50,363 bases of DNA from Clostridia bacterium (lineage in GTDB: Bacteria > Bacillota > Clostridia > Christensenellales > Aristaeellaceae): positions 1 to 50,363 of the forward strand of contig JAFROK010000057.1 in assembly GCA_017429695.1 (NCBI GenBank). The letters run 5' to 3'. Numbering within the stretch: position 1 is the stretch's first letter; each line of letters begins with the position of its first letter. The translations under genes and the position numbers were made by a program. The notes beneath the pieces were generated by a model. The model saw only the letters and a program-made list of their open reading frames with translations. It ran no database searches and was not told the DNA's origin. This document shows, one piece after another, positions 10,644 through 39,832 of this stretch.

Positions 10644-11912
10644 TCAGAGTTCTGTGATGCTATCAGCATACCTGCTCTTCATGGCATGGATTATCTTTGC
10701 AAATTCTTCTGCCTGGAAATCTTTATATTGTTCTTCATTGTTAATGCCATAATCAGTTTCCATGGTGTTTGAAAACTGCAGTTGTTGGGGTTCCCCGTTT
10801 TTGTCGTTGTAAGACAATACTGAAATTGCGCATATTTCTTTTTTCTGTGGGATCAGATTGCTGGCAACATTGCCTACCAGGCCTGAAAACAGTTTTTTGG
10901 CTCCCAGTGGGTCAAATCCGGTCGGCCTTACTTCAGTGTTTCCAAGGAAGTTCTGAGCGCCTTTCAGGACTTTATTTGTTTTATCTGTCGAGGTTAGTCC
11001 AACAGTAAAACCGGTAATTCTTTCGTATGGCAGTGTGATAGCATTTCCCTTATACTCGATGGAAAGGGCATCCCTGTCAGGATCCAGGGATAATGTCACA
11101 ACAACGCCTGATGGTATTTTTCCGATCGGTTGCAAATTGGTTCCGGTGTATTTCGTTTTCCGCTCTACAGACAAATCTTTTTTCAGTTCTCTTGCAGCGC
11201 TTGGTTTGAAGAGTCCCATGGTTCTACCGCCTTTCTTTACAAAAGCAAATCCCCGTCCGAGTTCCATCAGGAAATCGCGGATATGGGTCAGGATAGCGGA
11301 TTCCAATTCGCTTTCCAAATAAGCGTCTTCCGCTTTGAATCCGAGAAATTCCGCGATGATTGGACTTTTGATCAATTCATATTTGTTTTGCTGAAAAGCA
11401 TTTGTTTTGTTTTTCATTTCAGTGATGACCGATTCTTTCTGCGGGGACATCAGCAGACGGTCATAATACTGGGTGCTTATGTTGCGATCGAGCGTCCGCA
11501 CGCTCCAATTTTCATCTACAGCTTCATTCAGATACCAGAGACGGGCAGATTCATCCGAAACACGCAGCAGGCAACGAAAATGAGACCAGCTCAAATTGTG
11601 AACACGCGTGTTCACAATCTCCGGATTCGGGAAAAGCAGAAAAAATTTACGGTAATACTGCAAATTCCGTTTGGAAAAGCTCTCCCCGAATTCTTCCATA
11701 AGCTGTCCGGATAGAACATCCATCAGTTGTTTACCGTATTCAGCCCGATCAGCACCGTTCTGCTCCTGTTGCACAATTCGTTTACCAATATTCCAGTTCA
11801 TGAGTACCTGGGCGGCGCTCACCGCCTGATATGCAGTATTTCGTCCCTGCTGTATGATTTCCCGGATATCATCTACAACAGATTGGAAAGGGATTACTTT
11901 TCCCTTGTTCAT
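10644..11912 (-). CDS. Chimeric protein: DUF1016 N-terminal domain fused to a PH-like protein
   Basis: Residues 1 to about 225 match the DUF1016 N-terminal region of YhcG-type proteins (WNIGKRIVQQEQ; GESFSKRNLQYYRKFFLLFP; LSWSHFRCLLRV; ELGRGFAFVKKGG). The family then continues into a PDDEXK nuclease, but here the frame switches at MGLFKPSAARELKK (about residue 232) to an unrelated 191-residue protein. That part is beta-rich and PH-like (GVVVTLSLDPDRDALSIEYKG; ISVLSYNDKNGEPQQLQFS). The second part has its own ribosome site and ATG at 11219, so it may also be made alone. The ATG start at 11912 has GGAGGA upstream; a GTG at 11924 is also possible. The nuclease active site is absent. Confidence 0.7.
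   Translation of the reverse strand: MNKGKVIPFQSVVDDIREIIQQGRNTAYQAVSAAQVLMNWNIGKRIVQQEQNGADRAEYGKQLMDVLSGQLMEEFGESFSKRNLQYYRKFFLLFPNPEIVNTRVHNLSWSHFRCLLRVSDESARLWYLNEAVDENWSVRTLDRNISTQYYDRLLMSPQKESVITEMKNKTNAFQQNKYELIKSPIIAEFLGFKAEDAYLESELESAILTHIRDFLMELGRGFAFVKKGGRTMGLFKPSAARELKKDLSVERKTKYTGTNLQPIGKIPSGVVVTLSLDPDRDALSIEYKGNAITLPYERITGFTVGLTSTDKTNKVLKGAQNFLGNTEVRPTGFDPLGAKKLFSGLVGNVASNLIPQKKEICAISVLSYNDKNGEPQQLQFSNTMETDYGINNEEQYKDFQAEEFAKIIHAMKSRYADSITEL
11217..11234 (-). promoter_or_regulatory. Internal ribosome binding site and start of the PH-like part
   Basis: AAAGGCGG lies eight bases before an in-frame ATG (11217-11219). It would allow separate translation of the 191-residue C-terminal protein inside the chimera. 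Confidence 0.5.
11595..11618. repeat. Perfect 24-bp palindrome inside the DUF1016 gene
   Basis: ATTGTGAACACG followed by its exact reverse complement, with no loop. It encodes IVNTRVHN immediately before the conserved LSWSHF motif. The truncated DUF1016 gene at 36558 has palindromes in the equivalent interdomain stretch. Confidence 0.85.
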
Positions 11913-12018
11913 TTCTTTGTTCACTCCTCCGCAAATATCTGCCAGACAACTGCCGCAAACCCGTTTTCCGATTCTTCAGTCTTTATTTGGCCCCATTGTT
12001 CGTTTTCATCATATCAAT

Positions 12019-36304: not shown

Positions 36305-36553
36305 ATGAGTACAGTTGTCCGAGAATATGATGCGAAAATCGATTCGAAAAAGAGGCTTACGCTGCGCGGCGCCAAGTATGATTATTATCATGTCTCTGTC
36401 CTTCAGGATCAGAGAATTATTCTGGAGCCGAGAATACTGACGGTTCCTGAAGAAATATCAGAAAACACTCTGAAAATGATGGACAGCGCAGTAAAGAACA
36501 TGAAAAATGGAAAGGTTTCGCAGACACCGGATCTATCTGAATTCAAGGAGTAA
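36305..36553 (+). CDS. Putative antitoxin-like small protein
   Basis: This 82-residue protein starts with a short beta-rich domain (VREYDAKIDSKKRLTLRGAKYDYYHVSV) that resembles AbrB/MazE-like swapped-hairpin DNA-binding domains. A helix and a basic to acidic tail follow (NTLKMMDSAVKNMKNG). Such proteins often sit next to RelE-type toxins, but here the next gene is a DUF1016 remnant, four bases downstream. GGGAGGAAC precedes the ATG. Confidence 0.5.
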   Translation: MSTVVREYDAKIDSKKRLTLRGAKYDYYHVSVLQDQRIILEPRILTVPEEISENTLKMMDSAVKNMKNGKVSQTPDLSEFKE

Positions 36554-36557
36554 AGCC

Positions 36558-36977
36558 ATGAGTGAGATCCAGAAATACGATGAGGCGGTGCAGGTCATCA
36601 AGACTGCAATCCTACAAAGCCAGTATGATGCCGCGCGGTCTGTCAATGAGAAACAACTGATGCTGTATTACGGCATTGGCAAGTTCATATCTCTGAATTC
36701 CCGGAAAGGATTCTGGGGACAGGGTGCGATCGATGCAATCAGTGAACGGTTGGGGAAGGAATTGCCGGGATTGAAAGGCTTTTCGGCTCGAAATTTACGA
36801 AATATGCGTACATTCTATGAGGAATGGACTATATTGGAACAGACGTCAGGCACCAATGAACAAATATCTATTTCAAATTTGGCAGACGCATCTGCCAATA
36901 TCACAACTGCCATCACTATTCCAAATTGGCAGACGCATCTGCCAATTTCCGATGGTTTGTGTGTTAGCTATCACTGA
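36558..36977 (+). pseudogene. Truncated DUF1016/YhcG N-terminal domain
   Basis: The 139-codon frame has the DUF1016 start (LMLYYGIGKFISLNSRKGFWGQGAIDAISERLGKELPG; FSARNLRNMRTFYEEW). It then enters a stretch built on two copies of a 20-bp palindrome (NLADASAN and NWQTHLPI are the same palindrome in two frames) and stops at CVSYH. Complete relatives continue with a second helical domain and a PDDEXK nuclease, both missing here. GGAG precedes the ATG and the antitoxin-like gene ends four bases upstream. Confidence 0.8.
36879..36945. repeat. Two identical 20-bp palindromes in the DUF1016 interdomain region
   Basis: TTGGCAGACGCATCTGCCAA occurs at 36879-36898 and 36926-36945. Each pairs TTGGCAGA with TCTGCCAA around CGCA. 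Centre-to-centre distance is 47 bases, so the two copies are read in different frames. Confidence 0.9.
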
Positions 36978-39368: not shown

Positions 39369-39407
39369 AAAGTGGAACGTAGGGGACGGTTCCCTACGTT
39401 CCACTTT
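39369..39407. repeat. GGAACGTAGGGGACGG hairpin repeat, copy 1
   Basis: Perfect 16-base arms starting AAAGTGGAACGTAGGG around GACGGTT. Related copies lie at 39749-39832 and 42433-42457. They are intergenic and may also end transcription. Confidence 0.75.
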
Positions 39408-39748: not shown

Positions 39749-39832
39749 AAAGTGGAACGTAGGGGACGGTTCTCTATGTTCCACTTTTGGGGAAAACGGA
39801 ACGTGAGGAACCGTCCCCTACGTTCCACTTTT
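39749..39832. repeat. GGAACGTAGGGGACGG hairpin repeats, copies 2 and 3
   Basis: Two further units in opposite orientation (AAAGTGGAACGTAGGGGACGG at the left; ACCGTCCCCTACGTTCCACT at the right). The last bases of the array overlap the stop codon of the neighbouring secreted-protein gene. Confidence 0.75.

Follow-up and report, generated by a model that had tools for sequence, protein, structure and literature searches.

The 50,363-nucleotide contig JAFROK010000057.1 of a Clostridia bacterium (assembly GCA_017429695.1, family Aristaeellaceae), taken here at its full length and referred to as the window, carries two genes of the DUF1016/YhcG family, both with palindromic DNA in the hinge that follows the predicted recognition helix. 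Such palindromes belong to the DUF1016 family at large, in bacteria and archaea, and the palindromic word and the protein residues that would read it change together by a simple code. The palindrome is very probably a cognate double-stranded DNA site of the DUF1016 protein, situated inside the protein's own gene; we favour this reading because the bases of the word track the protein's DNA-reading residues, as expected of a binding site. Judging from the residue-base code only, we would expect with little doubt that the protein binds its own palindrome physically.

Palindromes are concentrated at one place in DUF1016 genes

DUF1016 genes were collected from the window's own genome (3 matches), a sample of its relatives (25 of 120 genomes, own genome included), a scan of genome contigs (74 loci), viral contigs (7 and 64 loci) and the six genomes behind earlier loci (6 of 6). 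Phylum samples contributed 17 of 299 genomes with a match in the window's own lineage (own genome included) and, centres included, 46 of 249 around a gammaproteobacterial, 16 of 59 around a cyanobacterial, 11 of 100 around a methanosarcinal and 15 of 80 around a spirochaetal genome; yhcG of E. coli K-12 is in locus L106. A query of viral contigs with E. coli YhcG gave no match. Profile A1, made from 20 diverse proteins, matched 378 open frames. The sequences flanking the hinge on either side were aligned in 267 of these, and filtering at <80% identity left 176. The hinge is defined as the stretch from the recognition helix to the W of the LSWSH motif; its median length is 72 nt.

The best hinge palindrome of each gene was compared with those of 100 synonymous-codon shuffles, in which the protein and its codon use are kept. 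Its mean score was 10.2 in the 176 genes and 5.0 in the shuffles, and in 139 of the 176 it was equalled by at most one shuffle in 100. The 19.8 kb of hinge sequence contain 137 palindromes scoring at least 9, spread over 127 of the 176 genes, and the remaining 167 kb of the same genes contain 28, a 41-fold difference in density. A chance origin of the hinge palindromes was rejected on the codon-shuffle comparison. The preliminary description of the window, made from its sequence, had pointed to unlike palindromes at one common place in its DUF1016 genes and suggested a comparison of the hinge with codon-matched sequence; the pattern is seen family-wide, far above the shuffles.

Several of the 28 palindromes outside the hinge seem to be displaced elements of the same type. 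In L314, L322 and L323 the hinge is without a palindrome but one lies about 230-265 nt further on, and a second palindrome copy is found upstream of the hinge in L149, L151, L160, L182 and L194. Of 253 other palindromes lying no more than 1.5 kb from the hinge, 21 are similar to the hinge word of the gene itself, where swapped genes would give 2.4; two or more palindromes scoring at least 7 occur in 26 of 176 genes, some plainly by chance. Two positional details may be added. Four loci without a strong hinge palindrome (L310, L314, L322 and L323) have one scoring 11-14 about 145-265 nt further downstream, close to where the two domains meet; and in L149 and L151 the second copy of the gene's own palindrome falls at the beginning of the open frame and, judged by its position, not far from the start codon, where an ordinary operator would lie.

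The arms vary and remain paired

Pairing was analysed in the gap-free class of 37 genes with a 63-nt hinge. At offsets 3-8 from the axis the arms form Watson-Crick pairs in 84-100% of genes; the expectation for independent columns is 30-49%, or 82% at the near-constant offset 5. Offset 7 is paired in all 37 (C-G 14, G-C 12, T-A 8, A-T 3). By a pair counter that accepts G-U as well, 87.1% of cells were paired, versus 64.2% in shuffled and at most 36.8% in slid alignments; cells with both sides changed numbered 110 versus 34.2 on shuffling, and the covariation score was 0.576 versus 0.158 shuffled and at most 0.116 slid. The excess over shuffles was weaker for double-change pairs (10 versus 7.7; 10/500 shuffles) and for pair types (24 versus 21.4; 66/500). 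The pair adjacent to the axis does not covary (0.84 observed versus 0.79 expected; 0.40 versus 0.37).

Paired arms inside a gene might form an mRNA hairpin that controls translation or decay, and strong stems with centres of 3-7 nt are indeed common. A hairpin of this kind should favour G.T among its imperfect pairs. The 1783 stem cells of palindromes scoring at least 8 hold 11 G.T, 15 A.C and 18 other mismatches, and offsets 2-9 of the 63-nt class hold 7, 8 and 9 respectively; with palindromes scored by their Watson-Crick pairs, only the ratio of G.T to A.C is informative in these counts, and it reveals no preference for G.T in the 1783 cells, which therefore argues against an RNA hairpin. 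Also against it are the involvement of a ParB-like domain in the residue-base code described below, the position of one copy past the stop codon of E. coli yhcG, and the result that no Rfam family reached its gathering score in the window. We give RNA control next to no credence.

A code links residues to bases

Regressions on overall identity were run on 34 genes of the 63-nt class and on 80 genes of a mixed 72-nt class. In the former, the highest columns outside those encoded by the palindrome were 114, 117, 142, 89 and 143, then 75 and 84; these fall in the recognition helix and in the equivalents of two further ParB helices that touch parS, the contacts being made by helices alpha 4, 6 and 8 (PMC7383237, partial text). 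In the 72-nt class, which mixes centre types and subfamilies, the same regression put other columns highest outside the hinge (187, 91, 42, 185, 264).

Residue-base counts were taken from the 152 of 176 genes whose palindrome scores at least 8, at 7, 3 and 4 bp from the dyad for odd-centred palindromes and at 6.5, 2.5 and 3.5 bp for even-centred ones. Of 74 genes with Arg at column 86, 73 have G at 7/6.5 bp, as do 8 of the 78 genes without this Arg; Ser at column 114 goes with A at 3/2.5 bp in 55 of 61, as against 0 of 91 for non-Ser; and Arg at column 117 goes with C at 4/3.5 bp in 42 of 47, as against 4 of 105 for non-Arg. After thinning to <50% identity (33 genes) the first two contrasts were 14/14 versus 1/19 and 13/14 versus 0/19. 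By eye, Thr, Gly, Tyr, Phe and Arg at column 114 each tend to go with a distinctive core word in odd-centred genes.

Phylogenetically independent contrasts were drawn on a tree of the nuclease domain only, for the 112 of 128 odd-centred genes in which that domain was aligned. They came out at 22:0 for R86/G (25 pairs, 3 uninformative) and 16:0 for S114/A (18 pairs, 2 uninformative); those for R117/C (3:1; 8 pairs, 4 uninformative) and for four control residue-base combinations were not significant. When 28,086 residue-base combinations were scanned blind to knowledge of ParB, R86/G ranked first and passed Bonferroni correction; S114/A (p 3e-5), the next pair outside the palindrome-encoded columns, failed it. 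Permutation within clusters gave no control, one cluster holding 113 of the 128 genes.

Because the rules had been seen before being tested, we fetched fresh plasmid genes, 12 picked by hand from 40 of 449 records. Palindromes were present in 11 of the 12, and the S114 rule held in 11 of 11 and the R86 rule in 10 of 11, the miss being L342; within this set L345 is 88% identical to an earlier member, L348 is without a palindrome scoring 7, and that of L344 scores only 7. The notion that the mid-arms are unread stem was dropped, since base 7 follows residue 86.

The presumed reading residues resemble those of ParB

In the predicted structure of a relative, L032, the N-terminal domain resembles the solved DNA-binding domains of ParB and Noc, and the C-terminus an EndoMS-like nuclease, with a predicted PD-(D/E)XK fold; the YhcG nuclease fold has a conserved D269 and K286. 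In the portion of a 2005 paper available (PMC1189080), YhcG is placed in a nuclease superfamily and its N-terminal domain is without a confident match. The HTH_ParB profile scored 23.4 bits on a window gene in six-frame translation and 21.0 on the annotated protein, versus a cut-off of 22.6, and hhalign aligned DUF1016 with ParB over 44 columns (E 4.6e-5, probability 68.6%). A sequence search of solved structures with profile A1 gave nothing significant. The CTP-binding domain of ParB is absent from the structure model, which opens with a single helix (residues 3-52) running into the DNA-binding domain; it is for want of this N-terminal domain that we do not file DUF1016 as a ParB.

ParB contacts are listed as G170, K171, S172, R173, N178, G201 and R204; base 1 of parS is read by R173 (Q in Noc), and base 6 is where G201 (R in Noc) lies (PMC7383237, partial text). 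Taken with the ParB consensus, these contacts identify G201 as the G in SAGHAR, and hhalign places that residue opposite column 114; columns 114 and 117 are the equivalents of ParB 201 and 204. Column 86 is most simply the R173 position, because the 28 residues between 173 and 201 equal the spacing from 86 to 114 in P0001, the larger of the two window proteins, though the hydrophobic pattern of the helix could shift the match by one. Base 1 of parS we take to be a G lying 6.5 bp from the dyad; R86 with G would then be analogous to ParB R173 at parS base 1 in residue type, base and distance.

The two DUF1016 genes of the window

The genes, their palindromes and the codons of the presumed reading residues are as follows.

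10644..11924, minus strand: DUF1016 chimera gene (426 aa, P0001), with a full DUF1016_N and the first ~49 residues of YhcG_C by Pfam.
11457..11870, minus strand: DUF1016_N domain of P0001; its counterpart in the model of the relative L032 is similar to the DNA-binding domain of Noc/ParB.
11574..11576, minus strand: Arg117 codon, ParB R204 equivalent, accompanying C at 3.5 bp.
11583..11585, minus strand: Ser114 codon (in LSWSHF), ParB G201 equivalent and predicted reader of A at 2.5 bp.
11595..11618, no strand: perfect 24-bp palindrome ATTGTGAACACGCGTGTTCACAAT, encoding I103-N110 (hairpin search, genome pattern search).
11667..11669, minus strand: Arg86 codon (recognition helix SFSKRN), predicted reader of G at 6.5 bp from the dyad.
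36558..36977, plus strand: truncated DUF1016_N gene (139 aa, P0002), without the YhcG nuclease domain (Pfam DUF1016_N E 5e-19; end of homology).
36789..36791, plus strand: Arg78 codon, corresponding to family column 86 (recognition helix GFSARN; translation, column mapping, R86/G fit).
36879..36898, no strand: palindrome copy 1, 8-bp arms with a CGCA centre (repeat and hairpin search).
36923..36948, no strand: palindrome copy 2, 11-bp arms with a CGCA centre; its G 6.5 bp from the dyad fits the column-86 Arg.

P0001 scores 154.1 bits for DUF1016_N and 39.7 for YhcG_C, its only Pfam matches above cut-off, and P0002 69.2 bits for DUF1016_N only. Past about residue 231 of P0001 (10644-11231, minus strand) the nuclease domain is replaced by a stretch without a Pfam match. 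Both genes obey the code, P0001 with R86/G, S114/A and R117/C, P0002 with its column-86 Arg and G.

The window contains two exact copies of TTGGCAGACGCATCTGCCAA and no more, at 36879-36898 and 36926-36945, which are 47 nt apart and so are read in different frames; shuffled windows give a mean of 0.03 matches to this sequence when as many as 3 mismatches are allowed. As a palindrome it is imperfect, its 8-bp arms enclosing the 4-nt centre CGCA; the stem of copy 2 reaches 11 bp (36923-36948). In the 10644 gene the 24-bp palindrome, which is perfect, stands directly before LSWSHF. These two observations of the preliminary description were recovered as given, apart from the imperfect centre of the first. 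Hairpins with a perfect stem of at least 9 and a loop of at most 6 number 6 in the entire window, two of them these DUF1016-gene palindromes. The 36558 gene had also been said to be cut right after its repeats; in agreement, its DNA homology to near relatives ends at ~36945 (L023) and ~36956 (L020), at or just past palindrome 2.

Directly upstream of this gene lies one for 82 aa (36305-36553) with no Pfam match, which by its size and place only might be called antitoxin-like. Elsewhere in the window two inverted repeats, at 39369-39407 and 39749-39831, have AAAGTGGAACGTAGGGGAC in common, with arms of 19 and up to 39 nt, and are perhaps copies of a small repeat.

Each gene has its own word

The pattern TTGGCAGAN{3,6}TCTGCCAA, sought in six whole genomes, matched only the two window sites in the own genome, once each in DUF1016 genes of G007 and G038, and nothing in G009, G120 or G124; TTGTGAACN{2,6}GTTCACAA matched one site in the own genome (the 10644 gene), one in G124 (a DUF1016 gene) and none in the four other genomes. 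The main E. coli word was found in 3526 of 5426 genomes, with a median of 2 places per genome (the two strands) and a maximum of 4; the 40 matches listed are all in genes annotated yhcG, DUF1016 or PDDEXK nuclease. Within the tabulated multi-copy genomes the recovered palindromes all differ: G124, for instance, has 6 different words among 6, and G820 has 5 among 5.

A mobile palindromic element, akin to repetitive extragenic palindromic (REP) sequences or Rickettsia palindromic elements and repeatedly inserted, would account for the extra hinge copies in 26 of 176 genes (some of them chance) and for the two identical copies in the 36558 gene. A dispersed repeat was rejected because each of the two window words, in the six genomes searched for it, matches DUF1016 genes only, which also disposes of the REP-like scatter raised as a check beforehand; the E. 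coli word is likewise confined, among the matches listed, to yhcG, DUF1016 and PDDEXK genes, and arms differ between genes. The idea of a mobile or gene-conversion insert, with which the window was first described, does not sit with a place constant from archaea to E. coli, arms that are hypervariable and bases that track DNA-reading residues. Repeated insertion is in our estimation extremely improbable.

Alleles of E. coli yhcG

MG1655 was compared with 8 allele regions. Its yhcG has three hinge palindromes (P1-P3) and a fourth after the stop, all with the core CAGAC..GTCTG; the fourth, ATTCTGCAGACAGTGTCTGCAGAAT, is at L106 4971-4995, 15 nt past the yhcG stop, between the convergent yhcG and nanQ. 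The O157 allele L336 is without P2 and P3, L340 keeps a P2/P3 hybrid, and the pseudogene alleles L339 and L341 are cut right after P3: the yhcG palindromes are junctions of natural deletions or truncations. The role of reassortment site once proposed for the palindromes agrees with such junctions, in these alleles and in the window gene, and looks secondary. Two pseudogene alleles were also seen to run on after P3 into a cassette with a 101-aa gene bearing the unchecked label of transposase.

In L337 and L338 column 86 is Arg, not Lys, and base 7 of P1 is G, not C, which with respect to K-12 is a code switch inside one species; P2-P4 depart from the column-86/base-7 pattern and are an exception to the code.

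Both arms differ together between 97%-identical E. coli alleles (L337/L338), as they would if the palindromes were a mutational by-product. Template switching is a mechanism that perfects palindromes, and might keep perfecting an ancient quasi-palindrome devoid of function. Such an origin leaves unexplained the one place across bacteria and archaea, the 41-fold enrichment and the link to DNA-reading residues, and is very unlikely to be the whole account; template switching may well be how new words arise quickly.

The alleles bear as well on whether the palindrome is read as a hairpin or cruciform, by shape, by the DUF1016 nuclease or a resolvase, in which case pairing matters and sequence does not. 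Arms hypervariable yet paired, an innermost pair that does not covary and palindromes at the deletion junctions of some alleles are all consistent with this, and the tandem copies in E. coli yhcG, which share one core and have different mid-arms, weigh against a sequence-read site; it is on their account that we keep shape reading as a rival. Shape reading gives no reason, however, why base 7 should change with residue 86 and base 3 with residue 114 (22:0, 16:0), or why columns 86 and 114 should be ParB specificity positions, and we think it improbable. As for the earlier suggestion of a hairpin target for the family's own nuclease, a target of the gene's own protein is near the data, whereas a hairpin read by shape fits them less well than a duplex read by sequence.

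Possible functions of the site

If the palindrome is the protein's cognate site, a symmetric dimer would bind there through its helix-turn-helix domain of ParB/Noc type; the column-86 residue would read the base at 6.5-7 bp from the dyad, and the column-114 residue (ParB 201) the base at 2.5-3 bp. As the word lies inside the DNA that codes for its reader, the two would be inseparable by transfer, and with words that differ among genes, paralogues need not cross-talk. The most likely consequence is autorepression, which has less support than binding and to which we give about an even chance. Bound within its own gene, some 300 bp inside the reading frame, the protein would roadblock transcription whatever promoter lies ahead, and a potentially harmful nuclease would be kept low until something, such as phage DNA or replication stress, draws the protein away. 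Autorepression by an intragenic roadblock would be the most economical function. Deletion of yhcG is synthetic lethal with alleles of dnaB, dnaN and parE (PMC2672614, partial text).

The same cognate site could serve another purpose, the nuclease acting on any DNA with its own word. Newly arriving copies of the element would thereby be kept out, and modification or the state of activation would protect the resident one. The nuclease fold, with the conserved D269 and K286 of YhcG, suits such a role, as do the surroundings of the genes on plasmids and in defence operons: among 12 plasmid regions, the DUF1016 gene lies between hsdM and hsdS of type I systems in two (L342, L346) and, in L349 (3953-5110, a Methylomonas plasmid), between pglX and pglZ of a bacteriophage exclusion (BREX) system. 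Palindromes that differ in every tabulated multi-copy genome, as in incompatibility groups, and the standing of DUF1016 as PADLOC phage-defence candidate PDC-S02 point the same way. Against exclusion, the own gene would become a target; we regard this reading as possible and rather unlikely. Equally tentative is the proposal that DUF1016 genes are self-addressed, the nuclease using the word to tell DNA of its own gene from other DNA and silencing or destroying rival copies; the word-reader pair could then diversify freely into a multitude of private channels that are blind to one another, and the system would need neither a guide nor an antitoxin nor a target locus of its own. On an Arthrobacter plasmid (L350), a pair of integrase genes has a DUF1016 gene on either side.

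A cognate site inside the gene points to an unrecognised self-control or self-recognition in candidate phage-defence genes and makes a sequence-level prediction for a widespread family of no known function with one member in E. coli K-12. If true, it would account for a mobile nuclease gene retaining its control site behind any promoter. The many natural protein-DNA pairs with a visible code would be of use in studies of how binding specificity comes to differ, and could supply orthogonal site-binder pairs.

Comparison with known systems

The palindrome is not described in the available portions of the DUF1016/YhcG literature found (including PMC4316617, PMC11341870, PMC1913061, PMC1189080 and PMC2672614). 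Of known systems, ParB-parS and Noc-NBS are like DUF1016 in joining a DNA-binding fold (predicted in DUF1016) to a two-fold symmetric palindrome, and in pairing a recognition-helix Arg with G 6.5 bp from the dyad and the 201-equivalent with an inner base (PMC7383237, partial text). Unlike ParB and Noc, DUF1016 has an EndoMS-like nuclease and no room for a CTPase domain; its site differs from gene to gene and, in most sampled members, overlaps the code for its own DNA-binding domain at a fixed place, and two of its words are without copies elsewhere in the genomes searched.

The operator lacO2 lies within lacZ and, like the DUF1016 word, is a repressor site in coding sequence; unlike lacO2, the DUF1016 site is private to its gene, and that gene encodes the presumed binder. 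With lacO2, the parS sites found within parB (parS-359; PMC4442127, partial text) and within the repB coding sequence (PMC4492784, partial text) are precedents for the position of the site. Rickettsia palindromic elements also put palindromic DNA inside open reading frames (PMC4316617, partial text); they are ~100-150 nt long and dispersed, whereas DUF1016 words are ~18-34 nt long, keep to one gene family and co-evolve with the protein. What sets DUF1016 apart, as far as its sequences indicate, is a family-wide, gene-private intragenic site that co-evolves with a ParB/Noc-like putative reader, itself normally joined to a nuclease.
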